Source: a virus. Taken from it: 57,029 nucleotides of DNA. Under the pieces are notes generated by a model. That model was not told the origin of the DNA, ran no database searches, and saw only the letters and a program-made list of their open reading frames with translations. The position numbers were made by a program, and so were the translations under genes. Where the stretch lies: IMG/VR virus record IMGVR_UViG_3300005528_000068, positions 1 through 57,029 of that record, one strand, 5' to 3'. How positions within the stretch are numbered: the stretch's first letter is position 1; each line of letters opens with the position of its first letter. Positions 2,591 to 53,915 of the stretch are shown in pieces.

Positions 2591-3181
2591 TTAATTTACA
2601 TTCACTACCCATCCATTGCCCTCAAGAACAGCTTTTGCAGCTAGTCCTGTAGCACTTGGAGGAGCGCTTGTTCCCTCAGAAAGATCAACATTTCCACCTG
2701 CCTGACCATTGTTGCTTAATACAACAAGAATGTCATCTACAGCTGTTTCTGTTAAAGCACACTCAATTCCATTAAAGTCTGTAATAGGTTGTGAATCAGC
2801 TATTACCACTGATGTCATTGCTAGATTTCCAGACACGTCTAAATTAATCAAAGATGTAAGTCCAGAAAGATCTAATACACCAGAAATATCACATTGGTCT
2901 AAGTCTAATGTTTCAAGAGCAGTGAGCGCTGATAAATTAGGAACTCCTCCAGAGAAGTTGCTATCATCAAGACGAAGTTGCTGAATGGCTGTAGATCCTG
3001 AAAAGTTAACAGATGTTAAACTGCTAGTGTTAGTTCCAGGAATATCACAGTCACTAATGTCAACCTCTACTAGATTAGGAAGATTGGACAAATTAACAGA
3101 TTGAAAACTATTCCAATCTATATAAATTCTTTGTAGGTTTACAAGATTCTGTAAGCCTGTTATTGATACTATTTGTGCCAT
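2591..3181 (-). CDS. Leucine-rich-repeat-like tail/adhesin protein
   Basis: The 196-residue protein consists of about seven leucine-rich-like repeats of roughly 22-25 residues ('LQNLVNLQRIYIDWN', 'LPNLVEVDISDCDI', 'LTALETLDLDQCDI', 'LTSLINLDVSGN'). The last 55 residues form a separate small domain (TETAVDDILVVLSNNG...LEGNGWVVNVN) that I have seen in other phage repeat proteins. It lacks a signal peptide, which fits a virion protein made in the cytoplasm. It follows the PKD-domain adhesin gene by nine bases. LRR folds are binding surfaces, so a receptor-binding or decoration role is likely. The repeat assignment is seen directly; the role is inferred from neighbours. Confidence 0.75.
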   Translation of the reverse strand: MAQIVSITGLQNLVNLQRIYIDWNSFQSVNLSNLPNLVEVDISDCDIPGTNTSSLTSVNFSGSTAIQQLRLDDSNFSGGVPNLSALTALETLDLDQCDISGVLDLSGLTSLINLDVSGNLAMTSVVIADSQPITDFNGIECALTETAVDDILVVLSNNGQAGGNVDLSEGTSAPPSATGLAAKAVLEGNGWVVNVN

Positions 3182-3190
3182 GTTTTAAGT

Positions 3191-3586
3191 TTAATCAGGT
3201 GAAGAGGTAAATTCAATAACACTATTTATATCATCAAAGCACACTCTAACAGTGTACTGGGTATCAGACTCTGGAAAAGTATGTTCTTCATAATCATATC
3301 CACCAAATCCTGCGTCTACATGTGTAGTACCATCACCCCAATCAACAGTGAAGTTGATAGGTCCTGTAGTGGTAAAACTAAAACCAAAGAATGTACCCTC
3401 TGTAGTGTCTACAACAAACTCAATACAGTTTGAGGGTAGAGGTAAGGGGTTGCAACATTCGTAAGTATTAATTTCTTTCCAATTGCCTACACCTGGCTTA
3501 AACCTATTAAGAATATTACTTCCTGGAATCACTCTACCAGATCCGTCATATCTAATATAAGATTTAAGGTCTCTTCTATTACTCAT
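3191..3586 (-). CDS. Module-A protein with PKD-like domain
   Basis: Residues 1-47 are the family A N-terminal module (D-L-K-S-Y-I-R-Y-D-G-S-G-R-V-I-P-G-S-N-I, then a K-P-x-V-G-x-W-x-E-I stretch and a CC pair). It is shared with the genes at 3583, 5140 and 6344. The remainder of the 131 residues is one beta-sandwich of PKD type: 'FTVDWGDGT' is the PKD signature, followed by 'EHTFPESDTQYTVRVCF'. PKD domains are immunoglobulin-like spacers or carbohydrate/protein binding domains of surface proteins. The gene overlaps the upstream family member by four bases. Probable role: a small virion surface protein attached through module A. The module is directly visible; its attachment function is inference. 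Confidence 0.75.
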   Translation of the reverse strand: MSNRRDLKSYIRYDGSGRVIPGSNILNRFKPGVGNWKEINTYECCNPLPLPSNCIEFVVDTTEGTFFGFSFTTTGPINFTVDWGDGTTHVDAGFGGYDYEEHTFPESDTQYTVRVCFDDINSVIEFTSSPD

Positions 3587-5121
3587 AATGGTGTGTTTAT
3601 TGTTGTGTAGGTTCCTTCAAATGTTAGATAGGTTATTGGTATTACAGTTGTGGGTACATCATAATAATTTGCTACACTATCAATAAATGTAGGTGTGGGA
3701 CTTGATGTTGTCCACAAGTTAGTGATGTCTGTAAATTTGTAACTACCGTATACACCATCAGCCACAGGAGTTAATGGGAGTTTGAAAAGCTGAGCATTAT
3801 ACGGATCAGTGTTATCATAGAATGCAAGAACAAGAGAGTTGTTCACCAAATTTCCCACTATAGGGCTTCCCCAAAAATAACCAGCTATATCATTAGGACT
3901 TTCTATTATATACGCCCATTCAAAAGATCCATTTGATAATAGCTTAGCTATTATTAACGGAGAACTACTATAAGTTAAAGTGTATCCTGGAATTGGTGTA
4001 TTTGGAAGATATGAGGATATATAAATATTTCCATCACCATCAGAATTAAGTTGAAAGGTTCCTAGAACATACTCATTACCATATATAGTATTGATGTTGC
4101 TTATTTTAGTAGTCCAAATAACATTTCCTTCGGGAGACATCTTTATGTATGCTCCATATAAAGGGTTAGAATAATATGATTGGTTGGCCCCATTTCCTAT
4201 TTGAAGCACTATATTCTCATCTTTATCAAACGCAATACCATATGCACCTGAAAGATTACCTGCTGAAAAACTTTTATTCCAAATCTCAATTAATGAGGAG
4301 TCTAATTTTACAATATAACTTTTATCAGTATCTGGAGTGGTACAAACTAAATATACCTCCCCAGCAGAATTTACATTTATTAAAGGGCTAAAAACATTAT
4401 CGATAAATGTTACAGTTTTTGATGCTAACACTACGCCTGCTGGACTAATTTTTCTAACAATTACAATATTATTACCAATACCACCAAGAGGTTGAATAAG
4501 AAAAGAAACATACATGTTATTAGCTGCATCAAATGCTACACTTTCAACATATTCTATATTAGCACTATAAACAGATCTATCTAAAACAATAGACCACAAC
4601 TCATTGCCATCGTTATCAAATTTTGTAATAGCAGTTGTAGTAAGAATATCAAGTTCTCCACCATAAACAGTAAAAAAACAAATTGGATTATCCTCTTTAT
4701 CTATAGCAATAGTTTCAGTTTCTATATATAGACTTGTACCGTTCTCTGCAAAATCAAACGTTCTACTCCAAACTAACTCACCAGCATCGTTAAACTTTTG
4801 TAATAAAGAGTTTACATAAGAGTTTTGGTTGGGATTGTTTGGACTTAGCCAATAGTCAACCATCAACATGAATGAATTACAATTGGAGTCTATTGCAGAT
4901 CCTAAAGCATAAAGAGTATCTGCACTTTCTGAATTAACTGTTTGATTAATCCAGAAATTAGAGCAAATTGTTGGTGCTGGTCCATTGCAACATTTATAGG
5001 CATCAATTTCTGACCAATCACCCACTTTAGGTTTAGATCTACTCAAGATGAGACTACCAGGAATCATCTTGCCAGATCCATCATATTTCAAATAGGCTTT
5101 TAAATCTGTTTTATTTGCCAC
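3583..5121 (-). CDS. Module-A protein with beta-propeller-like repeats
   Basis: Residues 1-48 are the family A module ending in CCNG. The rest of the 512-residue protein holds recurring strands of the type 'ITKFDNDGNELWSIVLD', 'VRKISPAGVVLASKTV', 'YIKMSPEGNVIWTTKIS' and 'IAKLLSNGSFEWAYIIE'. These are spaced 50-60 residues apart, with D-N-D-G-N/D-G-D-G-N turns. This is typical of SBBP/NHL-like propeller blades of bacterial surface proteins, and I count six to seven. The last 60 residues do not follow the repeat. The likely role is receptor recognition on the virion. It precedes the PKD gene with a four-base overlap and follows the DUF285 adhesin by 18 bases. Which propeller family it belongs to is uncertain. 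Confidence 0.7.
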   Translation of the reverse strand: MANKTDLKAYLKYDGSGKMIPGSLILSRSKPKVGDWSEIDAYKCCNGPAPTICSNFWINQTVNSESADTLYALGSAIDSNCNSFMLMVDYWLSPNNPNQNSYVNSLLQKFNDAGELVWSRTFDFAENGTSLYIETETIAIDKEDNPICFFTVYGGELDILTTTAITKFDNDGNELWSIVLDRSVYSANIEYVESVAFDAANNMYVSFLIQPLGGIGNNIVIVRKISPAGVVLASKTVTFIDNVFSPLINVNSAGEVYLVCTTPDTDKSYIVKLDSSLIEIWNKSFSAGNLSGAYGIAFDKDENIVLQIGNGANQSYYSNPLYGAYIKMSPEGNVIWTTKISNINTIYGNEYVLGTFQLNSDGDGNIYISSYLPNTPIPGYTLTYSSSPLIIAKLLSNGSFEWAYIIESPNDIAGYFWGSPIVGNLVNNSLVLAFYDNTDPYNAQLFKLPLTPVADGVYGSYKFTDITNLWTTSSPTPTFIDSVANYYDVPTTVIPITYLTFEGTYTTINTPL

Positions 5122-5139
5122 TGCTTTTTGTTTTAATTA

Positions 5140-6330
5140 TTATGGAGGACATGTTCCCCACACTGGTTTAGGTAACACCCACGCTGTTGCACCTGTAGCA
5201 AAATCTGTAGGTGTTGAAGGAATGTTTGTTACACACCATCCACTTAAATCTTGATTGAATGCTGTTGCGTTTTGAAACATTTGTCCCATATTAAAGACAT
5301 TGCTAACATCCCATCCACTTATATTCTGATTAAAAGGTGTATTACTAAACATGCCAGACATGTTTGTAACATCAACAGTGTTCCATACACCAATACTTTG
5401 GTTGAAGGGTGTACTGTTGAACATCAAACTCATGTTGGTGACATTACTGACATCCCAAATTCCTATCGGTTGATTGAAGATTGAATTGTCAAACATTTGT
5501 CTCATGTTTAACACACTTGATGTGTCCCAACCACTTACATCTTGATTAAAACTGCTTGCATCCAAAAACATTGATTCCATGGTTGTGACACTAGATGTAT
5601 CCCATCCACCAATGTTTTGATTAAACAATGAAGCATTTCGGAACATAGATGTCATATTGGTGACACTAGAAGTGTTCCACCCACTTATATTCTGATTGAA
5701 CTGAGTAGCATCATAAAAGACACCCTCCATATTAGTGACATTACTAACATTCCACTCATTTATCCTGTTCACTGTTGTTAATGATGAACAACCAAAAAAC
5801 ATAAAAGATAAATTACTAGCAGCAGTTAGGTCTAGTATATCGGTGACACCACTTAAATCTAAATTTGAACATCCACTAAAATAACCACCGTCATTACCTA
5901 ATCTGAATCTATTACCCCATTGAGATACACTTATCATCTTGGTTGGGTCTCCTCCATGAACATCAAAAGACCACCCTCTAGTGGTTCCTGATATAGTGAT
6001 GGTGTAGTCACCAGGGACAGCATACGTGTGTGTTCTGTTAGCATATGAATTTGCTGTAACAGTTCCATCACCCCAATCAATAGTTCCAACATATACACCA
6101 CCCAAATTATATGGAAGGGTGACAGATTCATCAGGAGATGTAGTTCTCCATACACTTATAAAAGGAATAGGCGCAGCAGTGGTGGTGTTAGTAGTACAAC
6201 ACTTGTATGCTGGTATCTCTTCCCAGTCACCAATCTTTGGTATATATTTGCTAAAAATATTACTTCCAGGGACGGCTCTTTTTAAAACATCATACCTAAC
6301 GTACGCTTTTAAATCCCTTTTATTACTCAC
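5140..6330 (-). CDS. Module-A adhesin with PKD-like domain and BspA/DUF285 repeats
   Basis: The 396-residue protein begins with the family A module (residues 1-46), followed by a short Thr/Ala linker (TTNTTTAAP). A PKD-like segment has 'GTIDWGDGTV' and 'NRTHTYAVPGDYTITISG'. From about residue 160 there are eight repeats of about 24 residues with the core F-N-Q-x-I-x-x-W-x-x-S-x-V-x-x-M-x-x-M-F. This is the DUF285/BspA-type leucine-rich repeat known from surface proteins of Mycoplasma, Bacteroidetes and protists, where it mediates adhesion. Some repeats are shortened by four to five residues. A cytoplasmic, signal-less start fits a virion fibre. This is one of the clearest adhesin domains in the window; its receptor is unknown. 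Confidence 0.85.
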   Translation of the reverse strand: MSNKRDLKAYVRYDVLKRAVPGSNIFSKYIPKIGDWEEIPAYKCCTTNTTTAAPIPFISVWRTTSPDESVTLPYNLGGVYVGTIDWGDGTVTANSYANRTHTYAVPGDYTITISGTTRGWSFDVHGGDPTKMISVSQWGNRFRLGNDGGYFSGCSNLDLSGVTDILDLTAASNLSFMFFGCSSLTTVNRINEWNVSNVTNMEGVFYDATQFNQNISGWNTSSVTNMTSMFRNASLFNQNIGGWDTSSVTTMESMFLDASSFNQDVSGWDTSSVLNMRQMFDNSIFNQPIGIWDVSNVTNMSLMFNSTPFNQSIGVWNTVDVTNMSGMFSNTPFNQNISGWDVSNVFNMGQMFQNATAFNQDLSGWCVTNIPSTPTDFATGATAWVLPKPVWGTCPP

Positions 6331-6343
6331 GATTTGTCAGATT

Positions 6344-6565
6344 TTATAGTGGACCTGCTGTGGTAGTGGTAGTTGTTGTGCTAGTGCTAGTGCTAGTGCT
6401 AGTAGTGGTGGTAGTGGTTTCATTGCAGCACTCATATGCTGGAATCTCTGTCCAATTTCCCACCTTAGGCTTCTTCCTTCTGAGGATCAGGCTGCTGGGA
6501 ACTACTCTCCCAGAACCATCAAAGCGTACATAAGCTTTGAGAGGGCGTTTGTTAATTGTGGCCAT
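6344..6565 (-). CDS. Module-A stub with Thr/Ser-rich C-terminal tail
   Basis: This 73-residue protein is a family A module (residues 1-48, ending ECC) followed only by a tract of about 20 Thr and Ser residues and the ending TAGPL. No globular domain follows. The tract is encoded by ACN/AGC triplets. The same module heads three longer proteins directly downstream, so this gene is either a minimal member that is used as such, or an anchor whose adhesin domain was lost or exchanged. Its start lies inside the 3' end of the glycosyltransferase gene (14-base overlap), so both are probably translated together. The Thr/Ser tail is a plausible O-glycosylation substrate; this is inference. Confidence 0.8.
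   Translation of the reverse strand: MATINKRPLKAYVRFDGSGRVVPSSLILRRKKPKVGNWTEIPAYECCNETTTTTTSTSTSTSTTTTTTTAGPL
6380..6403 (-). repeat. Hexanucleotide microsatellite (GCTAGT)4 in Thr/Ser tail
   Basis: Four perfect tandem copies of GCTAGT (plus strand) encode the alternating Ser-Thr part of the tail of the module-A stub. The unit is six bases, so copy-number change by slippage would lengthen or shorten the tail without breaking the frame. It sits within a longer Thr/Ser-coding tract at 6359-6418. Confidence 0.85.
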
Positions 6566-7580
6566 AATCTAAATTGTATTTGTTTTTAATGTTGAATAAT
6601 TGTTTTAAGTAGTAGTGGTTGCAGAGTGTCCTACTCTTCTCACTATCAAGCACCTCGTAGATGTGTGGGTCTTTAAAAGGATTATCCCCTGTGTGGTATT
6701 TACCCTTGTAGAATGTAGGAATGTCACCCTGACTATCTCCTACAATTCCTGCATTGTGCAGGATGCCCACTCTCTCAAGTCTGGATATATGATCTGAGCT
6801 CCATGCAAATTCCAGTTCTGGAATCACCTTTGTCTCTTGTTCCCTCAACCAGAGGTTCCAGAGAACAGCCCACATGTCCGCACACCAAGATTGATATCCT
6901 TTACTCTCGTTCTCGAAGTAATCTTTATTTATATTTCTGAGATAGGTTCTGATGATTAAGCAATCACCCAACACCTTTTCCCAGAAACTTGCACCTATAT
7001 TTTTCAGGAGATACTGTGCACCGCCTGAATTTTCCTCATTGCGCTCACAAATCTCTCTTGTTATACCAATCATGCTGGTCACTTCTGCCAGCACATCCCT
7101 GGTTTTATATTCTTTCAGCTTGTCAGGAAGTACATCCTTCACCTTGCTGTCAAAATATGAGGCACTTATATAACTGTTTGTATCTGATAGATAGCATACA
7201 TCATCTTCCAGATAAGCATCTACATTGAAGTTCTCTGTAAACACCACATCACTATCACAATAAAACACTGCCTTATTCACCATATCTGGATTAGCCTGGA
7301 AGTATTTCATCAGAGAATAAGGACGTAATACAGGAATGTAAACCTTGAGCATCTGGCTAATCTCATCCTCATCCTTTACATAAAAGAACTCAGCTTCTGG
7401 ATAGAGGTCAGCAACCTTTTTCCATTCCTGATTCCTTTCTCTGAAGTTGGGAGTGAAAACAAGAACAATAGCTTTGTCAGAATGTCCAAGCGTTTTCAGA
7501 CTTTCTAGCCACATGTGCACTTGCCAGATGTAATAGTTATCATCGGGCTGGGCGGTCACGAATTTTAGTTCTTTACTCAT
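6552..7580 (-). CDS. GT-A-fold glycosyltransferase
   Basis: The 342-residue protein has an N-terminal Rossmann-like half (KFVTAQPDDNYYIWQVHMWLESLKTLG; 'AIVLVFTP') and a DxD motif at 109-111 (FYCDSDVVF), the metal/nucleotide-sugar site of GT-A glycosyltransferases. Downstream are GGAQYLLK and a His-containing 'GILHNAGI', both reminiscent of the acceptor/metal region in such enzymes. There is no membrane segment, so it acts in the host cytoplasm. Its gene overlaps by one base with the HNH endonuclease upstream and by 14 bases with the Thr-tail gene downstream. That context suggests that it modifies a virion protein such as the Thr/Ser-rich tails. The alternative is modification of a host surface glycan or of DNA. 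The sugar and acceptor cannot be read from sequence. Confidence 0.8.
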   Translation of the reverse strand: MSKELKFVTAQPDDNYYIWQVHMWLESLKTLGHSDKAIVLVFTPNFRERNQEWKKVADLYPEAEFFYVKDEDEISQMLKVYIPVLRPYSLMKYFQANPDMVNKAVFYCDSDVVFTENFNVDAYLEDDVCYLSDTNSYISASYFDSKVKDVLPDKLKEYKTRDVLAEVTSMIGITREICERNEENSGGAQYLLKNIGASFWEKVLGDCLIIRTYLRNINKDYFENESKGYQSWCADMWAVLWNLWLREQETKVIPELEFAWSSDHISRLERVGILHNAGIVGDSQGDIPTFYKGKYHTGDNPFKDPHIYEVLDSEKSRTLCNHYYLKQLFNIKNKYNLDYGHN

Positions 7581-8170
7581 TATATAGTTGGTTTAAATCT
7601 TTCATCTCTTCTAACTACTTTGGTAGTGTTTGATTTCCAAGTTTGTCCATAAATAATTTGTCTTACAGTATATAAATTTATGTTTGTTATTTTAGAAATC
7701 TCTTTTATACTTTTTCCTGAATTATATAATTCTTTTAAAGCAGTAACCTTTTCATCATTAAGTTTTGCTCTACCATTTCCTTCACCAGCTCTACTAGGTT
7801 GTAAACCAAGTTTATAGGCATGTAGTTGATTTTCTGATTGAGTAACCCACTCCAAGTTTTCTAACCTATTATCTGTTTTTACACCATTAATATGGTTAAT
7901 CTGGGTACAACCTTCAGGTTTTGTCAGAAAGGCACTAGCCACAAGTTTATGAACTAGTCTAGTGTGACAACCTTCTTTACGAAACCTTACCTCAGGATAT
8001 CCTTTTTTATTAAAAGATTGTTTTAAATCTTTTCCTTTTAGCAAACATAGTCCATTTTTACCTTTTCTAAGTCTGTTTATGCCTCTAACATTACCTAGAC
8101 TACTAACTTCATATCCATCAAATTCTGGAATAATTTTCCATTCTTCACAGATAAATTTTAAGTCCCTCAT
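7580..8170 (-). CDS. HNH homing endonuclease with NUMOD4 domain
   Basis: The 196-residue protein has three parts. Residues 9-33 are a NUMOD4 motif (EEWKIIPEFDGYEVSSLGNVR). The central HNH nuclease contains 'LVHKLVASAF' and 'INHINGVKTDNRLENLEWVT', with His, Asn and the second Asn placed as in the family. From about residue 128 a helix-turn-helix segment begins (GRAKLNDEKV, then 'SIKEISKITNINLYTVRQII'). This is the classic layout of free-standing phage homing endonucleases. It lies between a module-C stub gene and the glycosyltransferase gene and shares a stop/start overlap with the latter, so it seems inserted cleanly into an operon. It resembles the GIY-YIG gene at the left edge in lifestyle but not in fold. 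Confidence 0.92.
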   Translation of the reverse strand: MRDLKFICEEWKIIPEFDGYEVSSLGNVRGINRLRKGKNGLCLLKGKDLKQSFNKKGYPEVRFRKEGCHTRLVHKLVASAFLTKPEGCTQINHINGVKTDNRLENLEWVTQSENQLHAYKLGLQPSRAGEGNGRAKLNDEKVTALKELYNSGKSIKEISKITNINLYTVRQIIYGQTWKSNTTKVVRRDERFKPTI

Positions 8171-8201
8171 ATATGTAGATGTTGTTGGTTTTATGTTTGC
8201 T

Positions 8202-8339
8202 CTATGGAGCTGCTGTTGTTGTGGTGGTAGTGGTAGACAATGCTGCTGTCACCTTAATCAATTGATCCAATTGCTTAGATATTTGATAAAGCAGATTAGC
8301 CTCATTACTCCATCCTATTTGTCTATTTGGTACTGACAT
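8202..8339 (-). CDS. Module-C stub with Thr tail (45 aa)
   Basis: A 45-residue reading frame begins MSVPNRQIGWSNEANLLYQI and continues with a short amphipathic helix, then ends in seven threonines and AAP. The first 30 residues align with the N-terminus of the much larger protein encoded immediately upstream (start at 9695): both have a P-x-x-Q-I-G-W-S-x-E-x-N-L-L motif followed by a helix ending D-x-L-I-x-V. It is therefore a shared N-terminal module (family C) carrying only a Thr tail, like the family A and B stubs. It ends in TAG. The gene is 16 bases from its larger relative. Its pattern match makes a chance reading frame unlikely. Confidence 0.8.
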   Translation of the reverse strand: MSVPNRQIGWSNEANLLYQISKQLDQLIKVTAALSTTTTTTTAAP

Positions 8340-8354
8340 GATATATTAAATTTA

Positions 8355-9695
8355 TTATCTACTGATTTCTTCCCAATCTATAGAAGCATATGCACCCTCA
8401 CCACCAGATGTTGTGGCTACAGCCATTTCTACTACAATCTCGTAAGGTGTGCCTGTTAACCCATTTCTTTCAAGCTGATTAGCAAAAAGAGCTTCCTTGA
8501 GAATATTAATTGAAGGAGATCCTTGGTTAGATGAATTAACAAATCCACTAGCTAACACTCTTCCTCCTGATGCAGAAGTGGCTGTAATATTATATTCTAC
8601 GGAAGAATCAGCTGCTGCAGTTAACCATGATCCTCCAGTGGTTGTAACACCACCATTCACCACTCTCCACTGGTAATTTTTACCATTACCTAGTCCTAAA
8701 ATAGAAACAGCTGTTGCAATTGCAATAGCATCTAGTCTTGTAGATTTAAGTCTTATTGATACAATAGGGTAGTAGGTTCCTGGTAAAGCAAAGGTTCTTG
8801 GTGCAACAATAGATGTGCCAGCAGACAACTGTGCACCTCTAAGTTCATAACCACCCTCAGAAATCACTGTAGAACAAATTTGTTTCAATGTACTAGCTCC
8901 AGATGTACCAGCTGTGTTGAATATCTCGTAACGCAGAGGTAATGATGCACTTGTAATATATGTGCTAGTGATGATGTTAGCATGTTGGAACGTATGGCAT
9001 AAAATAAACTGTCCGTTTATTACAAATCCTATACGTACAGATCCTACACCCAACCACTCTAAATCCATCCAAAGTATCTGAGCCTTGGTGAGATCAAGTG
9101 TAAGTCCTGAAGGACCGTTACCATCAAGCTTATCTACATTCCAATCAGCTTGTAAAACTGGTGTATTTACAACAGATCCTGTTACATAGCTTCTTTTCAC
9201 AAAAGCTATGTCACTATTTGCTTGTTCCAGATAGAATCCATTTTCAACTCCATAATATCCAACACGTTGTGTAAGACCTGCTTTAGGAGCACTCATTACA
9301 AATGTGTTCATCACCAGGAGTGATTTACCTGGTTGATAAGCAAACACCTTGATTGTTTCTCTTGTAACAGAAGATCCAGAAGCAGCTGTAACATTTAGAT
9401 CTACAAGTCCTTGATTAGCATTAAATACAGCTGCACCGCTTGTAGCAGTGGCTGTAGACCAAAGATCATTATCATCAAACCTATGGCTAGAATCAAACAT
9501 TGTAAGAGGTTCTGAAACTCTAAGCCTACCAAAGGCATCCTGTGATGTGGAAGGAGCAAATGTAATAGCACTGTCTACGTTGACATTAGTGTTTACATTA
9601 GAAGTTACACCAATAAGTCTATCAGTCTTCCTAAGAAGTTCCCACAGGAGATTAGACTCCTGGCTCCAGCCTATTTGTTTAGGTATTATAGCCAT
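8355..9695 (-). CDS. Module-C virion surface protein (446 aa)
   Basis: Residues 1-32 form the family C module (IPKQIGWSQESNLLWELL, then a helix ending DRLIGV). The rest is rich in beta strands and small residues, with 'AFGRLRVSEPLTMFDSSHRF' and 'VRIGFVINGQFILCHTF'. These are features of a protein type widely found in environmental phage genomes next to tail fibre genes; no enzymatic motif is visible. I read it as a tail or capsid surface fibre. It is the first gene of an operon: a promoter box TAGATTTG ends only seven bases before the ATG, so the mRNA is probably leaderless or nearly so. The module-C stub follows at once. Confidence 0.7.
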   Translation of the reverse strand: MAIIPKQIGWSQESNLLWELLRKTDRLIGVTSNVNTNVNVDSAITFAPSTSQDAFGRLRVSEPLTMFDSSHRFDDNDLWSTATATSGAAVFNANQGLVDLNVTAASGSSVTRETIKVFAYQPGKSLLVMNTFVMSAPKAGLTQRVGYYGVENGFYLEQANSDIAFVKRSYVTGSVVNTPVLQADWNVDKLDGNGPSGLTLDLTKAQILWMDLEWLGVGSVRIGFVINGQFILCHTFQHANIITSTYITSASLPLRYEIFNTAGTSGASTLKQICSTVISEGGYELRGAQLSAGTSIVAPRTFALPGTYYPIVSIRLKSTRLDAIAIATAVSILGLGNGKNYQWRVVNGGVTTTGGSWLTAAADSSVEYNITATSASGGRVLASGFVNSSNQGSPSINILKEALFANQLERNGLTGTPYEIVVEMAVATTSGGEGAYASIDWEEISR

Positions 9696-12837: not shown

Positions 12838-12869
12838 CAAAACTATGTATTTTATTTGAAACTACCAAA
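12838..12869 (-). promoter_or_regulatory. Promoter of lysis operon (TTTG-N20-TAGTTTTG)
   Basis: On the minus strand TTTG (12869-12866), a 20-base spacer and TAGTTTTG (12845-12838) match the Bacteroidetes primary sigma consensus with no mismatch. Transcription should start near 12832 and give a leader of about 120 bases before the ATG at 12713. The promoter interleaves with the plus-strand promoter at 12855-12886. Confidence 0.8.
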
Positions 12870-12886
12870 TATTTTTTCTACATTTG
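12855..12886 (+). promoter_or_regulatory. Promoter of glycosyltransferase gene (TTTG-N20-TACATTTG)
   Basis: TTTG (12855-12858), a 20-base spacer and TACATTTG (12879-12886) match the Bacteroidetes consensus perfectly. Start of transcription is expected about five bases after the last G, right at the ATG at 12892. The mRNA should be leaderless. The -33 box covers the TTG at 12856, which rules that codon out as start. Confidence 0.8.
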
Positions 12887-12891
12887 CCTAT

Positions 12892-20978: not shown

Positions 20979-23900
20979 TTAAGCTCTTGTGTAGGTTATT
21001 CTTATTTGTAATAATTCTGCTATTGCTGCTAATGTATCACCACCAGCACCACCTTGTCTTTCCGCTCTAAATTGTACATAGTTACCTGCAGCTGGTGTTC
21101 CCCCAATTGTAATAGCTGGTGTTGCTGCTGATATATTTACTATATCGTTTCCCTGATTAGCATCTGTTACAGTTTGTACAGTACCAAATGCTTGATCCAA
21201 AGCTTGGTTGTCAGCAAATGCTCTAGCTGATAACCCCCAAACAACACTATTTGTTGATGCTACACCTGCCACCCAATAGAACACAGCTGTTATAGTGCCT
21301 CCATTATAATCTGAAGGCATAGCTAATGCCCAGTTACAATACGATGTAACAACATCTGCAAATCCTACATAATAAAAGTTAACGTCATTTGTTATTGTTT
21401 CACTTTGTATTGGAGAGTTAGCACCCGATGTTATTGAAGGCCAGCTACCAGCTGCTGTTAATATAATTTGACCTGTTGGTGATATACCTGATGTACCACT
21501 AGTACCACTTGTTCCATTACTTCCTACAATACCATCTACACCACTTGTACCAGAAGTTCCAGAAGAGCCAGAAGAACCGTTAGATCCTATAACACCATTC
21601 ACACCGCTGGTTCCACTTGTTCCGCTTGTACCATTAGTTCCAAGAAAAGAACCATCTACACCACTAGATCCACTACTACCAGATGTTCCAGATGTACCAT
21701 TGGTACCATTTGCTCCGTTTATTCCACTAGTGCCACTGGTGCCAGATGTACCATTAGTGCCCTGTATACCACTTGTACCACTCGTACCACTTGTGCCAGT
21801 TGTACCAGAAGTTCCATTGGTTCCGTTTACACCATTAATGCCACTAGAACCGCTAGTGCCAGATGTACCAGTTGTACCACTAGTTCCTGATGTACCGTTA
21901 GTTCCATTTATGCCAGAGCTTCCACTTGTACCAGACGTACCAGTTGTTCCACTTGTCCCACTGGTACCATTCGTACCATTAATACCACTTGTCCCACTGG
22001 TTCCGTTAGTTCCTGCAACACCATCTGTACCACTGGTCCCACTAGTACCACTAGTACCATTGGTGCCATTCACAGAAACACCACTTGTACCTGAGGTACC
22101 TGTTGTGCCACTAGTGCCACTAGTTCCATTTGTACCATTTACTCCATTCTGACCAGAAGTTCCACTTGTACCTGTGGTACCAGATGTACCGTTGGTACCG
22201 TTAACACCACTTGTTCCACTTGTTCCAGTGGTACCTGAAGTGCCATTGGTTCCATTTATACCAGACGATCCGCTGGTTCCACTAGTACCGTTTGTACCAT
22301 TAACACCATTTATACCAGATGATCCAGAGCTGCCTGATGTGCCAGAGGTTCCTGTAGTTCCTGAAGTACCAGTGGTGCCTGAGGTTCCGTTTGTACCATT
22401 GATTCCTGATGTACCACTAGTTCCATTAGTACCGTTAATACCAGACGTACCACTAGTTCCTGTTGTGCCGCTAGTTCCTGTTGTTCCACTAGAACCACTG
22501 CTTCCTGAAGTACCGTTTGTTCCATCCACCCCACTAGTTCCAGACGTACCATTGGTTCCGTTAATTCCACTAGAACCACTACTTCCACTGGTTCCTGATG
22601 TACCTGTGGTTCCTGAAGAGCCCGATGTACCTGTAGTACCTGAGGTACCATTAGTGCCATTTATTCCATCAGTACCACTTGATCCACTACTACCAGAGCT
22701 ACCAGATGTCCCAGAACTACCATCAGTACCGCTAGTTCCACTGGTACCTGTAGTACCAGAACTACCACTAGTACCAGATGTACCTCCAGTGCCCCCCACT
22801 CCTGAAGTTTTATAATATGTATTACCAGAAGAGTCTACAACAACAACTCTTGTTTGTAGCTCATCGTTTGTAATACCACTAATCTTAAGTGTATTGGTAT
22901 CTGTGAGAGCAGAAGCAGTTATGTTAGATGCATTGAATATATCATTACCTCCTAGTCCAAGATCACCAGACATTTGTCTGGTTCCATCTACAAGGAGATA
23001 TTGAATGTGGTCATCAGCAGCTAAACCCAAAAGGTTTCCATGTACAGCTGTAGCAGATACACCACTAGCTTTGAAACCAATCACTGGGCGAATATCCTCA
23101 ATCTGTACAATATTTGTGTCTCCCTGCTGAATATATATGGATGCAATGGGAACTACACCATCTGTAAAATATGTAGGAGGTGTAGGCAAATCAGCACCTT
23201 CCGCTGCTACAAGTGTAGAATATTCAGCTTGTCCAAGTACAAGGAAGTATTTTTCATTAGCTCCCTGACCTACAACATACAGTGTATGTTTAGTATAATA
23301 CAATGCTGTCAGGGAAGCAAGCGTTCCTGTACCATTATCGTATTGTGTATTATTAACTGTGTTCGTAGAACTTATAGTCCAACCAGTTCCACCATCTCTA
23401 TAATACTGATTAAATGTAATTGCTGTTCCACCTGAAGGAAGGAAGTTGTTTTCAGAGAAATAATAATTACCTGAACCAACATCTAGTCTGAATGGTGTAA
23501 CATTCTCTGCTACAGAAGATCCTGAAACATATACAGATCCAAGGGCATTTCTATTGAATGTAGAAAGCTTATTAGACATGTGATCTGCTTGGTAAGGAGA
23601 GTCATCTATGAGCTCAATTGTAGTGGAATTTGTCACCACTCTACCAAGGATAATATTTGTCAAGCTGCTTGGTGGTGTACCAGAAGCAGACAATATAGCA
23701 CTGTCGTTAATGTATATATAATTGTCTGTATTTGCAGATAGTGTTAGGTTGGTATTTGTCCAATCTATTCTTTTATATATATCTGGAGAAATTGAATCTT
23801 CCAGATAACCATATCCTGCATCTACTAGTATTTGTAGTCCACTTACAACAGTGATATTACCTCCATCCATAAGTCCCATAGGACTACCGTTGAATATGAG

Positions 23901-26402
23901 TGTTGATGCATCTGTATGTGTTCCATCTTGAAATGTTACAGATAGTTTTCTTGTAATATCATTCTCACCATCTGTATCATCCAAGAAGTTCCAGAAGAAA
24001 TTATTACTTTGATTATTTATCTTAGTATGATCAGACACACCCTGGAATCTGCCTATACATAATGTGTCTTGTACATCAATGTCATAAGTGCTGGAATTAT
24101 GAATCATGCTACCTACAACCTTAAAAGAACATGGATTGCCCACATTCAATACTTGTATACCATAATCCCAATCAGGAATATCTAGTCCAGCTGTCTCTAG
24201 ATCAGCACCATCTTGCAGCTGAATACACACAGAACCTGTAGCTCCTTCTCCTGCAAAGGAACAAGTGTACATAGATAGTTCAGCACCTGATCCTGAAGCA
24301 TATGTACCAATGGCAGCACCTGCTCCAACAGGAAACAGATAGTAGTTCTCTAGGTTGGCTGTAGCAAAAAATCCATTTGTAGCCTCCACCTTAACACCAT
24401 AACTGAACACCTCATTCATGTCCAGATATTCACCAAAGAACACTGTGTCTTGTGTAGAAGATTTAATCCATACACCAGTGTCACAATTGTAGAATGACAC
24501 CTTGTGCGCTTGAGCAAAGTCACCAATATCATCACAATATATAGCAGCATATCCAGCAGGAGCATTTGCCAAACTCAAAAACGAAACCTCGTTATTCTGA
24601 CCTATCCTGATAAGATGTTGTGTAGCAGAATTAGGGAATATCTGTGTTGTCTGAATGTTACTACCAACAATACTTACGTATGGTTTGGATGTTAGATCAA
24701 TCTCATCTTCAAAAAACTGACCAGGACCCACCTGTACAACAAACCTATTACTTGCACTTGATCCAGTGATCCAGTCAACAGCAGCTTTAATTGATGTGAA
24801 GTCAGCACCCTTTGTTCCCACCGTGATCACCCTAGGATCTGTATTCACCTCATACAGAGGAGCAGGGATGGGAATTTCTGTTTTAAGGAATGAATCTGTA
24901 CCTTCTATATGACCAGTTGCTGTAGGATGTTGTACAACAACGTCTTTTGTATTGTTTTCAAAGTTGAGGGCAGATCCAAATATACTTGGAGCTGATCCCA
25001 CATTAGGAGCATAAATTGCTGTTGCCCATCTCTGGAAGTTTACAGCTGTAAGACGTAGAGAACCACCGTTCTCAACCCAGAAACCTGTACCAGCAGGAGC
25101 ACCTACTGCTTTTGTAAGTAAACATCCGTTTACAATAAATGTACAACCTGGCTGATCTGCCAAAGCAAATATCAATCCTGCAGTGGTAACAACGCCACCA
25201 TTGGTGGAAGTTACGTTTCTCAACTGCATCCTACCAATACCACCACCGCTATTCGTTACATGGAAACCTACAGTGAATGGATAACCGCCATATTTAACGT
25301 TGGAACATTGTAATATACAGTTACCACCAGGTACACCGATCACCTTTGCGTGGGTGTAGTTAGCACCAAATCTTACGTTCTCTACGTAAGCAATTGCATT
25401 TGTCTGAGGAGTGGTTGGGGAAGAATATACAACAGCAGCTGCACCAGTTCCTGTTGATCCTTGTATCTGCACATCAATCACAAGAGACTGATCCGCCATT
25501 ACAAACACAGGATTATTCGGATTACTTGCTTGGATAACAGTGGTAGTGTGACTTTCACCTTTAACACTAATCCAAGACTTCATTGTAATAGTATTCTCTA
25601 TATAGAGTCCAGGATATACCTTAACTGTCCAAGGACTACTTGCTGTAGCTGTAGTGATACTATTAACTGCAGCTTCTACAGAATTAAAGTCAACACCTAT
25701 ACTTCCAGGTAGACCAACAGTTACATAGTTCATTGGGTCCGAACCAGCCCCATCTGTACCAGATGTTCCACTAGATCCAGAGGAACCATTTGATCCTATA
25801 ATACCATCTACGCCACTAGTACCTGATGTACCATTGCTACCATTAGTGCCATTAAGTCCACTAGTACCACTTGTCCCTGAAGTGCCAGAGGTTCCTCTAG
25901 TTCCAGAAGAACCAGATGTTCCAGACGTACCATGTGTTCCAGGAGCACCACTTGATCCACTAGTACCAGATGTACCTGTGGTACCAGACGTACCTCTAGT
26001 TCCACTACTACCACTAGAGCCAGAGGTACCACTTGTAGCAATAGGAATATTACCAAGTGTACCATCTCCCCTGACAAATTGAGAAGCTGTGCCTCCAGTT
26101 GTTCTGAAAGCAGCAGACTCAATTGTTCCCGTTAGTTTAAACAAATATCCACTACTATTAATAGTAGTGTTTTCAATTAAACTTCCTCCCAACTTTACAG
26201 GCTGAGAAGGGAGCTGAACTATACCGTTATCAAATACGTATATTAATCCTGATGATTGGAAAGCTGCATCTATCTTCTCAAGAGCAGTTTCCAGATTATC
26301 ATTGGTGTTGATACCTGTATAAACTAGATTAGCACCTTCGTAAAATACGCAGGTGCTATTCAGTATAACTGGACAGGGGGTAGCTCCACAATTAACGTTC
26401 AT
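20979..26402 (-). CDS. Giant module-B adhesin with collagen-like repeats and twin beta-helices
   Basis: The 1807-residue protein starts with the family B module (residues 1-50; C-x-x-x-P-C-P-V-I-L) and the 'GGSLIENTTINSSGY' stretch. A first collagen-like G-x-y block follows at about 121-219. Then come two parallel beta-helix domains, each opened by a copy of a pectate-lyase-like start (N-Y-V-T-V-G...DFNSVEAAV and R-V-I-T-V-G...DFTSIKAAV). Next are a jelly-roll-like region and a second collagen-like block at about 1201-1641 (Gly in every third position, with Thr, Ser and Asn). A C-terminal globular domain of about 165 residues ends the protein. There is no signal peptide. It fits a long flexible host-recognition or glycan-cleaving fibre. 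The N-G-T and G-T-S triplets are dense potential O-glycosylation sites. Confidence 0.82.
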   Translation of the reverse strand: MNVNCGATPCPVILNSTCVFYEGANLVYTGINTNDNLETALEKIDAAFQSSGLIYVFDNGIVQLPSQPVKLGGSLIENTTINSSGYLFKLTGTIESAAFRTTGGTASQFVRGDGTLGNIPIATSGTSGSSGSSGTRGTSGTTGTSGTSGSSGAPGTHGTSGTSGSSGTRGTSGTSGTSGTSGLNGTNGSNGTSGTSGVDGIIGSNGSSGSSGTSGTDGAGSDPMNYVTVGLPGSIGVDFNSVEAAVNSITTATASSPWTVKVYPGLYIENTITMKSWISVKGESHTTTVIQASNPNNPVFVMADQSLVIDVQIQGSTGTGAAAVVYSSPTTPQTNAIAYVENVRFGANYTHAKVIGVPGGNCILQCSNVKYGGYPFTVGFHVTNSGGGIGRMQLRNVTSTNGGVVTTAGLIFALADQPGCTFIVNGCLLTKAVGAPAGTGFWVENGGSLRLTAVNFQRWATAIYAPNVGSAPSIFGSALNFENNTKDVVVQHPTATGHIEGTDSFLKTEIPIPAPLYEVNTDPRVITVGTKGADFTSIKAAVDWITGSSASNRFVVQVGPGQFFEDEIDLTSKPYVSIVGSNIQTTQIFPNSATQHLIRIGQNNEVSFLSLANAPAGYAAIYCDDIGDFAQAHKVSFYNCDTGVWIKSSTQDTVFFGEYLDMNEVFSYGVKVEATNGFFATANLENYYLFPVGAGAAIGTYASGSGAELSMYTCSFAGEGATGSVCIQLQDGADLETAGLDIPDWDYGIQVLNVGNPCSFKVVGSMIHNSSTYDIDVQDTLCIGRFQGVSDHTKINNQSNNFFWNFLDDTDGENDITRKLSVTFQDGTHTDASTLIFNGSPMGLMDGGNITVVSGLQILVDAGYGYLEDSISPDIYKRIDWTNTNLTLSANTDNYIYINDSAILSASGTPPSSLTNIILGRVVTNSTTIELIDDSPYQADHMSNKLSTFNRNALGSVYVSGSSVAENVTPFRLDVGSGNYYFSENNFLPSGGTAITFNQYYRDGGTGWTISSTNTVNNTQYDNGTGTLASLTALYYTKHTLYVVGQGANEKYFLVLGQAEYSTLVAAEGADLPTPPTYFTDGVVPIASIYIQQGDTNIVQIEDIRPVIGFKASGVSATAVHGNLLGLAADDHIQYLLVDGTRQMSGDLGLGGNDIFNASNITASALTDTNTLKISGITNDELQTRVVVVDSSGNTYYKTSGVGGTGGTSGTSGSSGTTGTSGTSGTDGSSGTSGSSGSSGSSGTDGINGTNGTSGTTGTSGSSGTTGTSGTSGSSGSSGINGTNGTSGTSGVDGTNGTSGSSGSSGTTGTSGTTGTSGTSGINGTNGTSGTSGINGTNGTSGTTGTSGTTGTSGTSGSSGSSGINGVNGTNGTSGTSGSSGINGTNGTSGTTGTSGTSGVNGTNGTSGTTGTSGTSGQNGVNGTNGTSGTSGTTGTSGTSGVSVNGTNGTSGTSGTSGTDGVAGTNGTSGTSGINGTNGTSGTSGTTGTSGTSGSSGINGTNGTSGTSGTTGTSGTSGSSGINGVNGTNGTSGTTGTSGTSGTSGIQGTNGTSGTSGTSGINGANGTNGTSGTSGSSGSSGVDGSFLGTNGTSGTSGTSGVNGVIGSNGSSGSSGTSGTSGVDGIVGSNGTSGTSGTSGISPTGQIILTAAGSWPSITSGANSPIQSETITNDVNFYYVGFADVVTSYCNWALAMPSDYNGGTITAVFYWVAGVASTNSVVWGLSARAFADNQALDQAFGTVQTVTDANQGNDIVNISAATPAITIGGTPAAGNYVQFRAERQGGAGGDTLAAIAELLQIRITYTRA
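21480..22810 (-). repeat. Collagen-like Gly-Thr-Ser coding repeat (long block)
   Basis: About 440 codons on the minus strand follow a strict G-x-y pattern, mostly GTS, GSS, GTT, GTN and GIN, with rare V, D or Q. At DNA level the block is a degenerate nine-base repeat whose synonymous codons vary. It should be prone to recombination with the block at 25745-26040 and with related phages. On the plus strand it mimics V-P-L repeats, which are not genes. Confidence 0.9.
25745..26040 (-). repeat. Collagen-like Gly-Thr-Ser coding repeat (short block)
   Basis: About 98 codons of G-x-y triplets, near the N-terminus of the 1807-residue adhesin, have the same composition as the longer block. The two blocks are in direct orientation about 3 kb apart and flank the beta-helix domains. 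Recombination between them would delete those domains in frame. Confidence 0.85.
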
Positions 26403-26412
26403 CTATATATTA

Positions 26413-26640
26413 TTATAAAGGAGAAGTGGTGGTAGTTGTTGTTGTGCTGGTACTACTACTTGTACTAGTAGTGGTAGTTGTAGGAGGCACACAGGCACAG
26501 CTATCATTTATTTTCTTGAGAATATCTTCTAAAGTGTCTCCAGGGGATACATCTAGATTTTCCAGATATTCGCCATCATAAATGACGCAAACTGAATTAA
26601 TGTTTGTTGCACAAGTTGGGCAAATTACAGCGACACGCAT
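26413..26640 (-). CDS. Module-B stub with Thr/Ser tail (75 aa)
   Basis: Residues 1-50 are a divergent family B module (C-x-x-C near residue 10, 'SVCVIYDGEYLENLDV', helix 'LEDILKKINDSCAC'). After VPP the protein continues as about 19 Thr and Ser residues and ends SPL. There is no further domain. It is the B-family counterpart of the module-A stub at 6344 and module-C stub at 8202. It is the first gene of the adhesin operon, with the -7 box of a promoter ending five bases before its ATG, and it is followed after ten bases by the giant module-B adhesin. Confidence 0.8.
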   Translation of the reverse strand: MRVAVICPTCATNINSVCVIYDGEYLENLDVSPGDTLEDILKKINDSCACVPPTTTTTSTSSSTSTTTTTTTSPL

Positions 26641-51500: not shown

Positions 51501-53044
51501 GCTCTATTTACACTTATCCCTTGTGCTGCCATGGGATATTCTGTTACATATGTACCATCAAATGTATAATTCTCACCAGGATACATCATCCTTGTTTCTC
51601 CTGTATCACTCACACCAAGAACAGGATATGGAACACCCTCCATAGTAATATTGTTGGAGGGGATAGTTGTAATCTCACCAGGATATTCCCACTGTCCATA
51701 TGGAGTGATGATTGATCCATCCTGACTGATAGTCTTAGGTTTGAAATCTAGTCCTTCTTGGTAGTATTTCATTTCTCCACCATTCTGCATTTTAGGTTTT
51801 CCTGTTTTAGGATCTAAATATATTCTACCATATATTTCAAAAGGGTTACCAACCCAATCTAGAGGATTATCGTAATCATTTATATCATAGTACGATATAT
51901 AATCACCTTTCTCATCTTTACCTTTTGAATATTTAAAGTTCTTCAAAGCTCCTTGAGCAACTAAACTACCTTTAACCTTTCTTTCTTTTTCAGAAGATTT
52001 AATAAAGTCTTTATTTCCATAAGTAGTTAGATCTTCTAAGATTTCTTTTTCCAATTCTGGAGACAAAGAATAGTATGCAGAATTTGGATCTTTAGAAGTT
52101 GTTGGTCTATAAGATGATTTAATAAATGAATTATGCTTTTGTGGCAATCCTTGATGTATATATAAAGCATCATAAGATGCATTTAAATTAGAAGGATCGA
52201 CAGTTGGCATAGACATTTTTCTATTCCAGGTTTCAGATAACTTTTTTCCTTTTTTATTATATGAATTTTGTGCAATTTTTTCTTTATATTCTTTTAAGGT
52301 TAGTTCACCATCCTTTAATTGTTGACTTAATCCTCTTTGTATAGAGTTGTCAATTTTATATTCAGATTCACTGTGTCCAAATCCACCATAAGGATATACA
52401 TTTTCTGCTATCAGTTTATTTAACCAATTACCATTCTGTGCACTAGCCTTTGTCTTCTTTGCATAAGGACCATTAGAAGGAATTCCTCCTGTACGTGCGT
52501 ATTGAAATCCTGTAGAGCCAGGAAGGGTTCCACCCATTTGATAATCTTTCCCCCATCTCCTAAAAGGTGTAGGAATGTTTTGTCCTTTCTCTACATAAGG
52601 ATGTCTCACTGTTCTTTCCCACTCATCAGCTTCTTGCCATGTTTTAAATGGACCACCGAGATGTTCTCCTGTTTTATTAAATTCAGCTTTAGCATCTTTA
52701 TCTGTTAAATATTTACCATACTTAAAAGATGGAATTAAATAAGCTGGTTCTCCATCCTCTCCACCTACAGAAATTGCTAACTCTGTACTAGGATCAATCT
52801 TTGGAATAACATGTCCTTTTGGTAACTTTCTACTTGTTGGTTCAAGAAATGTCAATCCACCATTTTGCATAGAAGGACCACCCCATGCACCATTATAATC
52901 AAAGCCTTGATCTGTCAATCCACCCATTGTTCCCTCAATGCCATTCTCTGCTTGTGGTACATAGTTAGTTGGATAGACAAATCCACCTAATTGTAACTCA
53001 TCATCATAGGCATCTAACCATCCTTGTGTTTTCTTCTTTGCCAT
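48557..53044 (-). CDS. Giant virion protein with glycine zipper (1495 aa)
   Basis: The N-terminal two thirds contain scattered motifs of the type M-Q-N-G-G/M-Q-V-G-G, which I associate with internal virion proteins of crAss-like phages. At about 745-800 a run of small residues (GTLVGGPLGGVVGSALGGIV, then GGVIGGG) forms a glycine zipper, a membrane-inserting helix type used by pore-forming ejection proteins. The C-terminal 200 residues are helical, with 'QTYMPLLEDITSVSLQDQLNEIQAQTNAAM' and many Gln/Ala. There is no known enzyme motif. It is followed by a terminator and preceded by module-D proteins with a stop/start contact. I infer an ejection protein that helps the genome or polymerase cross the envelope. 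Confidence 0.7.
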   Translation of the reverse strand: MAKKKTQGWLDAYDDELQLGGFVYPTNYVPQAENGIEGTMGGLTDQGFDYNGAWGGPSMQNGGLTFLEPTSRKLPKGHVIPKIDPSTELAISVGGEDGEPAYLIPSFKYGKYLTDKDAKAEFNKTGEHLGGPFKTWQEADEWERTVRHPYVEKGQNIPTPFRRWGKDYQMGGTLPGSTGFQYARTGGIPSNGPYAKKTKASAQNGNWLNKLIAENVYPYGGFGHSESEYKIDNSIQRGLSQQLKDGELTLKEYKEKIAQNSYNKKGKKLSETWNRKMSMPTVDPSNLNASYDALYIHQGLPQKHNSFIKSSYRPTTSKDPNSAYYSLSPELEKEILEDLTTYGNKDFIKSSEKERKVKGSLVAQGALKNFKYSKGKDEKGDYISYYDINDYDNPLDWVGNPFEIYGRIYLDPKTGKPKMQNGGEMKYYQEGLDFKPKTISQDGSIITPYGQWEYPGEITTIPSNNITMEGVPYPVLGVSDTGETRMMYPGENYTFDGTYVTEYPMAAQGISVNRADEAPLKKLDQLLNFTNYNDMAKAKQGKKLPKYQNSGKPLKADLQMPSFMKPINLNKKSTLGYTPIGLPDSRSEDIVSPSVYDITGASRYYGKSLGNKKPSKSSPTGDILGGVQNIISGAAQWKEDATDVKRAKQWGKISDLAVKSLATTEREKNKWVRPEDYVQSSNYGTGKSVLGSAEYGMQVGGNLTEIQNMYNPGDLYSDLGYEPMEESDKVKQFQTGGNIFSNWQQGFLDFGAQDAGTLGGGIGSFLGGGSGQESGASRTLSGVGQVAGTLVGGPLGGVVGSALGGIVGGVIGGGQEQKIKAQQQKINNFGLQQNVLGMQNRLSGYMEDGGGLKYLSNDWQPQVIAKFGEYDLKDLLAPPKDADMLRAGGHLKNYTEPSERAMQTYAMGGDLQIDNRGDIDFIGYNPEAAKTGASGYIGITRGPSHDNGGFNVAYGGNKVEVEGNETVMEKKEGGVLGSDKSMLILGDMYTGPFGEEILEGVNEKVAKKVLKGKNIKDVKFKHLGNEVAKLTGKLNKAESKFIDLADSVDGDSIDDQLKLSTAKAGELGVKMQYKELNKIQQNAADTQTAYHDAAKERGYDDTPTFLSDIKKGKMKQQAAMGSKFSMAQDGYKSRYDLQPWQGNKYGLGKKTASQFTTQQWDKIADELGFTGKGNKEFQKFLVNNPKTLPFIIQRHKSLYGKAPFIDELLGAGWQGASDYDKVPLQENPIQPIGDIPEKVKETPGSVKVTPIKKPSTAQMLLSQVLPLMRFSNQEDFDYRQIAPELYSMATNQRVPVQAQTYMPLLEDITSVSLQDQLNEIQAQTNAAMRLTGNNPAAQAAIASQAAAAKNKVLGEQLRINQQLELDTKRRNLGALNEAMLKNLALRDQQYERQSIAESKTKQESREALSSIAEKIAKHKLENRTLGVYENMYNYRFGPKGQAININAPYEFSTDRYASTDNLIPVKNTKGDIIEYKVKNDNVSKNGSLVKAIKNL

Positions 53045-53913
53045 TATTTGTAAGAGATTTGGCTTGGTGTAACAATAAATTGGCTTGTTAGGTGGACATT
53101 AGATTTGTCATCTAGAATATGTCTCACCTTTAAATCTTTAGCTCTTAGAGGTTCTTTTTTGAAACTGCGTTTGGAATAGTCCATATTAGCTTGGTTTACA
53201 ATCTTGTCTATAGACATAGACTCACAACTCTTTGTAAACAAAGGTAGGGATTTATCTTTTACTAGTCCCCAGAACGTATTATATTGATAGAAATTATCAC
53301 TCTTTGTATACGTAATTGTCTTACTATCAGCGTTGTATACAGGATATTTCAAGTATTCCTTCAGGTTGTTCATAGGTTTGGCAACAAGTTCAAGTATTCC
53401 TGTACTCTGTTGATCATTGTACAACACTGCTTTGTTGAAATATCCGTTGATAGATATTTTCCTATTATCATTAAATACACCATCATCTGAAGGAAGATAG
53501 GTGTATGCTTTTGTATAATCTTTTACATTCTGAAGAATCTCATCATTATATTGATATGCGAATGGATATTCAATAATGTATGGTCTGATGCATCCGTAAT
53601 ATGTATTGTATATTACAGGATTGGCAAGATGTCTCCAGAGAGATGCTGTATTTGATTCTGTGTATTGAATGTTTGCGATTTCCTCAACTGTAGCAGTTGA
53701 AATAGGTATGTTCCATGAATAAGAACAACAATCTTTCCCAGAAGAACTAACTACTACAACGTTCACAGAACTATCTACACTTAGAGCAAGTCCTGAAATG
53801 AGCTCACTCTTAGGTACGTTAGTAGCAAGCACATTCCCCTTATCATCAGATATTGAGAATATACTTAGTCTACTTCCAGCCTTTTTTAACTTTATGACAA
53901 TTGTTTTAGCCAT
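53044..53913 (-). CDS. Module-D virion protein (289 aa)
   Basis: The ATG at 53913 is preferred over a TTG at 53922, because it aligns with the N-terminus of the neighbouring gene (MAKTIVIKL and MAQTVLITL). Residues 1-75 are the family D module: T-I-V-I-K-L...AG, 'FSISDDKGNVLA', 'SELISGLALSV', 'VVVVSSSGKDCCSYSWNIPIS'. The remaining 210 residues, rich in Tyr and Asn, show no known domain ('YGCIRPYIIEYPFAYQYND'). It lies between the module-D/Thr-linker gene and the 1495-residue protein, and its last codons contact the start of the latter. It is probably a minor virion protein. Confidence 0.68.
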   Translation of the reverse strand: MAKTIVIKLKKAGSRLSIFSISDDKGNVLATNVPKSELISGLALSVDSSVNVVVVSSSGKDCCSYSWNIPISTATVEEIANIQYTESNTASLWRHLANPVIYNTYYGCIRPYIIEYPFAYQYNDEILQNVKDYTKAYTYLPSDDGVFNDNRKISINGYFNKAVLYNDQQSTGILELVAKPMNNLKEYLKYPVYNADSKTITYTKSDNFYQYNTFWGLVKDKSLPLFTKSCESMSIDKIVNQANMDYSKRSFKKEPLRAKDLKVRHILDDKSNVHLTSQFIVTPSQISYK

Positions 53914-53915
53914 TA

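Follow-up and report, generated by a model that had tools for sequence, protein, structure and literature searches.

Short N-terminal modules with exchangeable C-terminal domains, and a neighbouring putative glycosyltransferase of threonine tracts, in an uncultured tailed phage lineage

Klebsiella phages phiK64-1/RaK2 and those of the Menlow group carry several receptor-binding proteins (RBPs) with short conserved N-termini and variable C-termini, and in multi-RBP Klebsiella phages a truncated RBP has been proposed to be a vacant docking site (PMC6872550, PMC10253068). In closely related phages a near-identical RBP N-terminus can precede a non-homologous C-terminal domain, and such domain shuffling is ongoing (PMC10684548). 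The tail fibre gp22 of crAss001 docks via its residues 1-26 (PMC10172136), and RBPs diversified by diversity-generating retroelements (DGRs) have C-lectin domains (PMC10743442). Che8-type mycobacteriophages encode a glycosyltransferase and have modified virion proteins, as far as the work cited in PMC11256854 describes them. Here we analyzed a linear record of 57,029 bases from a lake-type bacterial virus (IMGVR_UViG_3300005528_000068, positions 1-57,029; hereafter the window), in which four short N-terminal modules, A to D, are reused at the head of genes with different C-terminal parts. Below, the modules are referred to as sockets and the domains behind them as plugs, and genes are named by their first coordinate.

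Module A, of 47-49 residues, forms the N-terminus of the genes at 3191-3586, 3583-5121, 5140-6330 and 6344-6565, the first three copies being 55-66% identical to that of 6344. Module B opens 16853, 20979 and 26413, and the copy of 20979 is 73% identical to that of 16853 and 31% to that of 26413. Module C opens a reading frame of 45 residues at 8202-8339 and the gene at 8355-9695 (43% identical), and module D opens 53916 and 53044 (35% identical). Profiles built from relatives recovered these copies, in the order given, with E values of 8e-25, 6e-23 and 4e-17 for B, 9e-21 and 2e-15 for C, and 4e-36 and 2e-24 for D, and when five pairs covering all four modules were shuffled, 0/2000 shuffles scored at or above the observed value. 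Run on the window, the relatives' profiles of A to D found all known copies and no additional one. The reading of the DNA that preceded this analysis, made from its letters alone (the sequence-only reading), had assigned A to four adjacent genes, B to three, and C and D to two each, and all of these assignments, including the divergent 26413, are thereby borne out. It had located them at 2591-9695, a range that holds only A and C, and the leucine-rich repeat (LRR) gene at 2591-3181 has no module.

The C-termini had been said to change completely within each family. This is mostly the case, although 16853 and 20979 are alike for a further 65 residues past module B (66% identity), and 3191 and 5140 have a weak PKD similarity in common. 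Of the domain labels given earlier to the A genes, DUF285 is strongly matched in 5140 (E 5e-68) and 6344 does end in Thr only; the PKD match in 5140 is weak, and the propeller named for 3583 stays unconfirmed, its C-terminal domain having no match in Pfam, PHROG or NCBIfam. All module copies behind the count of eleven candidate surface proteins are real, but three of the eleven (6344, 8202 and 26413) are bare sockets with a Ser/Thr tract and without a C-terminal domain, only the first of which had been recognised as a Thr tail, and 53044 carries a conserved domain.

Scans of IMG/VR returned 146 relatives of A, 55 of B, 146 of C and 63 of D, and in near-complete relatives (101-124 kb) all four modules were present in 34/34, with 7-12 module matches in each genome. 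Module matches slightly exceed genes, since some genes carry two in one frame; tandem module A or module C matches of this kind were seen in G003, G024, G031 and L105:7977-8228. The fetched loci held 204 distinct tails behind A, 130 behind B, 200 behind C and 91 behind D, and the module was nearly always N-terminal. About half of the A tails (103) and more than one third of the C tails (75) are bare or nearly bare, with a Thr tail or little more. The remaining tails form 210 architecture clusters (A 53, B 64, C 64, D 37), six of which mix modules, so the search of metagenomic phages for other C-termini that the sequence-only reading had proposed returned dozens of unrelated architectures. Plug types found by Pfam in 121 representatives were collagen, Fib_succ_major, LRR/BspA/DUF285, Laminin_G_3, PKD, Lcl_C, C1q, BclA_C and Peptidase_S74. 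As every related locus is metagenomic, chimeric contigs might in principle have fused shared N-termini to unrelated genes. We regard such an artefact as barely credible: a second IMG/VR record matches at 100% identity throughout the stretches compared, which take in the A and C gene regions and two of the B gene regions, and hundreds of loci from many samples have the same organisation with intact frames. Outside IMG/VR, module A had no tblastn match in 50,697 phage records and no relative in 84,980 prokaryote genomes.

The same plugs were found on different sockets. One plug of ~158 residues stands behind modules A, C and D as well as within a B protein, at about 48-76% identity, a Fib_succ_major-like plug is common to B, C and D proteins, and in one A protein and one C protein the plug is 87% identical. 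The 16853 plug recurs behind module C (L075:6924-8111), LRR domains resembling 2591 stand behind module A in other loci, and residues 44-446 of 8355 share about 62% identity with virion structural proteins from cyanophages and HMO-2011, whose N-termini are unrelated. Pairs of loci displayed the exchange at the DNA level. Between L116 and L126 an identity of 99.3% runs into module C, the plug is unalignable, and identity returns with the first base of the following C module; between L006 and L012 identity ends where a C module and an A module end. Over all loci, 59/311 high-identity blocks had their end within 45 nucleotides of a module 3' end, compared to 36/1494 for random positions, and 38/282 had their start at a module 5' start, compared to 26/1494, with 9/282 for the control of block starts at module ends. 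Breaks in DNA identity were about 8-fold enriched at module borders. These counts pool related pairs and are hence not independent, so that their Fisher p values should be taken as indicative.

Natural swaps and breaks of DNA identity at module borders thus support an organisation of sockets with exchangeable plugs, as far as it can be read from sequence. A history without swapping, in which whole-gene duplication left the common N-termini behind while the C-termini diverged past recognition, would account for the 53044-type protein and a core B protein, both conserved whole. It is hard to reconcile with plugs that are up to 87% identical yet stand on different sockets, with swap pairs in which unrelated plugs lie between flanks that are >90% identical, with breakpoints at module borders, or with the 8355 plug in cyanophage proteins of different N-termini, and we judge it very improbable. 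The exchangeable-domain reading proposed earlier, with conserved whole-protein duplicates as its test, therefore stands for most members, given the many architectures, the mixed clusters and the swap pairs, and fails for 53044 and the B protein of ~370 residues. The latter (about 360-400 residues, with a tail-fibre-like C-terminus) lies near the D genes of the near-complete relatives G001-G034 and is not in the cut window. DGR diversification was rejected as the source of variation, as the reverse transcriptase PF00078 was found in 0/34 near-complete relatives while the control was detected.

Several observations suggest that the modular proteins are on the virion, possibly at the tail tip or on fibres. 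The gene at 54556-57027 encodes a muzzle-like protein whose tblastn matches include large structural proteins in Cellulophaga phages phi17:2/phi4:1 and csAssE-Sib (about 27-31% identity), with a further match in Leptolyngbya phage Lbo-JY46. In Lbo-JY46 the muzzle-like protein ends in a region that corresponds to the C-terminal part of 53044, and because this conserved domain is fused to a muzzle-like tail protein in relatives, it is probably a conserved virion domain rather than an adhesin. Module B has a weak match near the start of tail fibre proteins in Lbo-JY46 (E 5e-6) and phi17:2 (E 0.003), and in cyanophages and HMO-2011 homologues of the 8355 plug (phrog_1645) carry the annotation virion structural protein. 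Some of the plugs belong to types common among bacterial surface adhesins, as would be expected of proteins that sit on the surface of the infected cell or are released from it, with a role for instance in superinfection exclusion or biofilm interaction. The annotation of a plug homologue as virion structural protein and the fusion of the 53044 C-terminal part to a muzzle-like protein argue against this, no signal peptide was noticed on reading the module sequences by eye (no predictor was used), and we consider display away from the virion improbable. Major capsid, portal and terminase were not among the genes identified in the window.

Between the C and A genes lies 6552-7580, a predicted glycosyltransferase. 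Its AlphaFold2 (AF2) model has a mean predicted local distance difference test score (pLDDT) of 94.5, and by Foldseek it resembles the GT-A fold, with glycogenin and alpha-1,3-galactosyltransferase as nearest structures (prob 1.00); both Asp of the DxD motif are invariant in the family. A homologue is found inside the C-to-A span in 127/128 loci with both modules, where the preceding last C is bare in 107/131 loci and the following first A in 89/140. The enzyme most likely O-glycosylates the Thr tracts. Thr runs have a commonest length of 7 and mixed ACA/ACT/ACC codons, and both features disfavour slippage on a DNA repeat as their source. As a recombination hinge the tract is likewise disfavoured, as many plug-bearing members have none and the breaks are at module borders. 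The position of the enzyme suggests another reading, in which the modules are processing signals, recognised for instance by this glycosyltransferase or by an assembly chaperone for sorting or glycosylation, and attachment is by other regions: C and A genes flank the enzyme in nearly every locus, and a bare module with a Thr tail would make a minimal glycosylation substrate. However, B and D genes are distant from the enzyme and behave in the same way, many modular proteins have no Thr tract, one enzyme needs no four unrelated signals, and the weak module B match opens tail fibre genes of isolates. We find this reading unlikely, though less so than the other alternatives, and favour sockets that fix the proteins to the virion.

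The pairing of enzyme and tract extends beyond the lineage. The motif T7-[VA]-A-P is not private to it, as 77/120 stretches among the matches listed have no modules. Such tracts are widespread in viral contigs (L278-L397), and some Thr runs are far longer than 7. Among the matches listed, 16 of the 77 module-free tract stretches hold an enzyme homologue of 27-36% identity, and in 16/16 of these the enzyme lies 0-38 nucleotides from a Thr-tract gene on the same strand. In loci selected by the enzyme, a tract gene is found somewhere in 70/80 and immediately adjacent in 37/80, compared to 82/415 for other genes. Distant homologues occur in Enterococcus, Lactococcus, Lactobacillus and Chryseobacterium phages, where they usually abut a poly-Thr tail or capsid gene. 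A Thr-rich gene is directly upstream of the enzyme in 9 of the 13 isolates examined (phiFL1A, CHPC971, 1706, CHPC836, iLp84, Bacchae, LP65, SAC12B and MA9V-3), and it is the major tail protein in phiFL1A, CHPC971 and 1706 and a capsid protein in CHPC836; in SAC12B and LP65 the repeats are rich in Thr, with no pure runs. In 9183 and bIL285 only the major tail gene, located further down, has a Thr tract, and no Thr-rich gene was seen near the enzyme in nattely and PT1-4 (2/13). The phrog_4417 family ('prophage pi2 protein 34') and poly-Thr tails may therefore form a general, previously unrecognised two-gene phage system for O-glycosylation of virion Thr tracts (typical run 7-8), in phages of Bacillota/Bacteroidota hosts and in the window lineage, where the glycosylated tails would double as linkers or caps for a swappable display on four sockets. 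We give this generalisation even odds.

Taken together, our results suggest a tailed-phage lineage whose muzzle-like protein resembles that of crAss-like phages and whose host-contact surface would be built from four short N-terminal socket families. Each socket would anchor the protein that carries it to an invariant part of the virion, probably the tail-tip or fibre complex. The plug behind it (C-lectin, LRR/DUF285, PKD, ConA-like, collagen fibre or phrog_1645), often joined via a Ser/Thr linker, would be interchangeable and may bind receptors, and recombination at module borders would replace the plug while the socket is kept. Plug-less copies would consist of a socket and a Thr tail, and the enzyme from the C-to-A cluster would most likely O-glycosylate the Thr tracts. 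We put the probability of this proposal as a whole at about 0.77. Several points weigh against it. The 53044-type protein and the ~370-residue B protein are whole-protein orthologues across relatives, and the breakpoint counts carry the dependence described above. No solved structure is a convincing relative of module A, C or D: in PDB sequences A and D had no match, and B and C only weak, chance-like matches to coiled-coil or helical chains. In the AF2 model of 53044 module D is all-beta (pLDDT about 57-88) and the remainder is poor, and a fold search with it gave no match at E<=0.001. No Thr tract is present in 59/90 plug-bearing A proteins and 95/120 C proteins, and the tract is therefore not needed for swapping. 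Finally, adjacency is weaker when loci are selected by the enzyme (37/80) than by the tract (16/16), and the pairing is thus not universal.

The features of the window that bear on this proposal are collected in Table 1.

Table 1. Module-bearing and associated genes of the window
Coordinates	Strand	Feature	Basis
2591..3181	-	free-standing LRR gene adjoining the A cluster	relatives carry similar domains behind module A
3191..3586	-	module A (~3443-3586) + PKD-like domain	PKD judged from sequence; weakly similar to 5140
3583..5121	-	module A (~4978-5121) + domain of ~460 aa, no match in Pfam, PHROG or NCBIfam	same plug behind module A in relatives
5140..6330	-	module A (~6187-6330) + weak PKD + DUF285/PARCEL repeats	Pfam DUF285 E 4.5e-68, PKD_4 E 0.001; NCBIfam PARCEL
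6344..6565	-	bare module A (6419-6565) + Ser/Thr tract, end TTTTTTTAGPL	
6552..7580	-	predicted GT-A glycosyltransferase, phrog_4417	AF2 model, Foldseek, conservation in C-to-A span
7580..8170	-	homing endonuclease (NUMOD4/HNH) separating bare C from glycosyltransferase	Pfam NUMOD4, HNH_3; homologues in 27 loci only
8202..8339	-	bare module C (~8235-8339) + TTTTTTTAAP	
8355..9695	-	module C (~9591-9695) + phrog_1645 domain of ~400 aa	
16853..19378	-	module B (~19223-19378; likeness to 20979 over ~117 aa) + fibre-like C-terminal region	
20979..26402	-	module B (~26247-26402) + long collagen-like fibre	Pfam Collagen E 4e-69
26413..26640	-	bare divergent module B (~26485-26640) + Ser/Thr tract	relatives' profile E 4e-17
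53044..53922	-	module D (~53683-53913) + conserved domain of ~210 aa	likely start ATG at 53913
53916..54545	-	module D (~54318-54545) + Ser/Thr linker + variable domain	
54556..57027	-	muzzle-like virion protein, truncated by window end; Thr tracts recur in its C-terminal extension	tblastn

The homing endonuclease at 7580-8170 is outside the socket system, and a second one, of the GIY-YIG type, is truncated by the window edge at 3-515. Beside the A cluster, a Dps-like gene (2168-2578) and its small neighbour (1887-2168) are kept in 129 and 126 loci, respectively, and homologues of a predicted metalloprotease at 1003-1890 (reprolysin/M57-like, with thrombospondin type 3 repeats) are present in 8 loci only. 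The + strand gene at 12856-16350 encodes 1164 residues with a methyltransferase and two glycosyltransferase domains; its neighbours are on the opposite strand and homologues were found in 70 fetched loci. Two adjacent giant genes, 26710-33051 and 33051-45881, encode 2113 and 4276 residues, with only a weak exonuclease match to PHROG in the first.

In this uncultured lineage, many host-contact proteins appear to be retained on fixed sockets and varied by whole-domain replacement instead of through a retroelement. The socket sequences could serve as probes, as a gene that opens with a socket is predicted to encode a surface protein whose C-terminus is a candidate for binding. The enzyme encoded alongside further suggests that, in several phage groups, the poly-Thr tails of tail and capsid proteins are O-glycosylated, among them those of the cultured Lactococcus phages 1706 and CHPC971.

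Host recognition from multiple sockets is already known, and what appears to be new here is this particular build. Like phiK64-1/RaK2, the lineage has several proteins per genome with a common short N-terminus and unrelated C-termini, and exchanges the C-terminus while the N-terminus is kept. Unlike them, it has four unrelated sockets, bare Thr-tailed sockets are a regular class, and plugs occur on several sockets. Beta-helical depolymerase C-termini are also missing by Pfam, the plugs being lectin, LRR, PKD, collagen and S74; a T4gp10-like domain had no Pfam match in the window proteins or the 121 representatives, with no search of HHpred depth made. As in DGR-diversified RBPs, C-lectin-type plugs (Fib_succ_major, Lcl_C) are present, but here whole domains are replaced and the 34 near-complete relatives have no reverse transcriptase. 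A glycosyltransferase is phage-encoded here as in the Che8 type, so far as that type is described in the cited source, and in this lineage, judged by the genes alone, it is a phrog_4417 GT-A enzyme beside poly-Thr genes. The muzzle-like protein in the window links the lineage to crAss-like phages, among which crAss001 docks a trimeric fibre in the tail hub by a short N-terminus (PMC10172136), whereas modules A, C and D have no sequence similarity to PDB chains and each module has several paralogues here. Beyond the domain shuffling described for RBPs (PMC10684548), one lineage here holds parallel socket families, with plugs exchanged between the families and breakpoints that map to the module borders.

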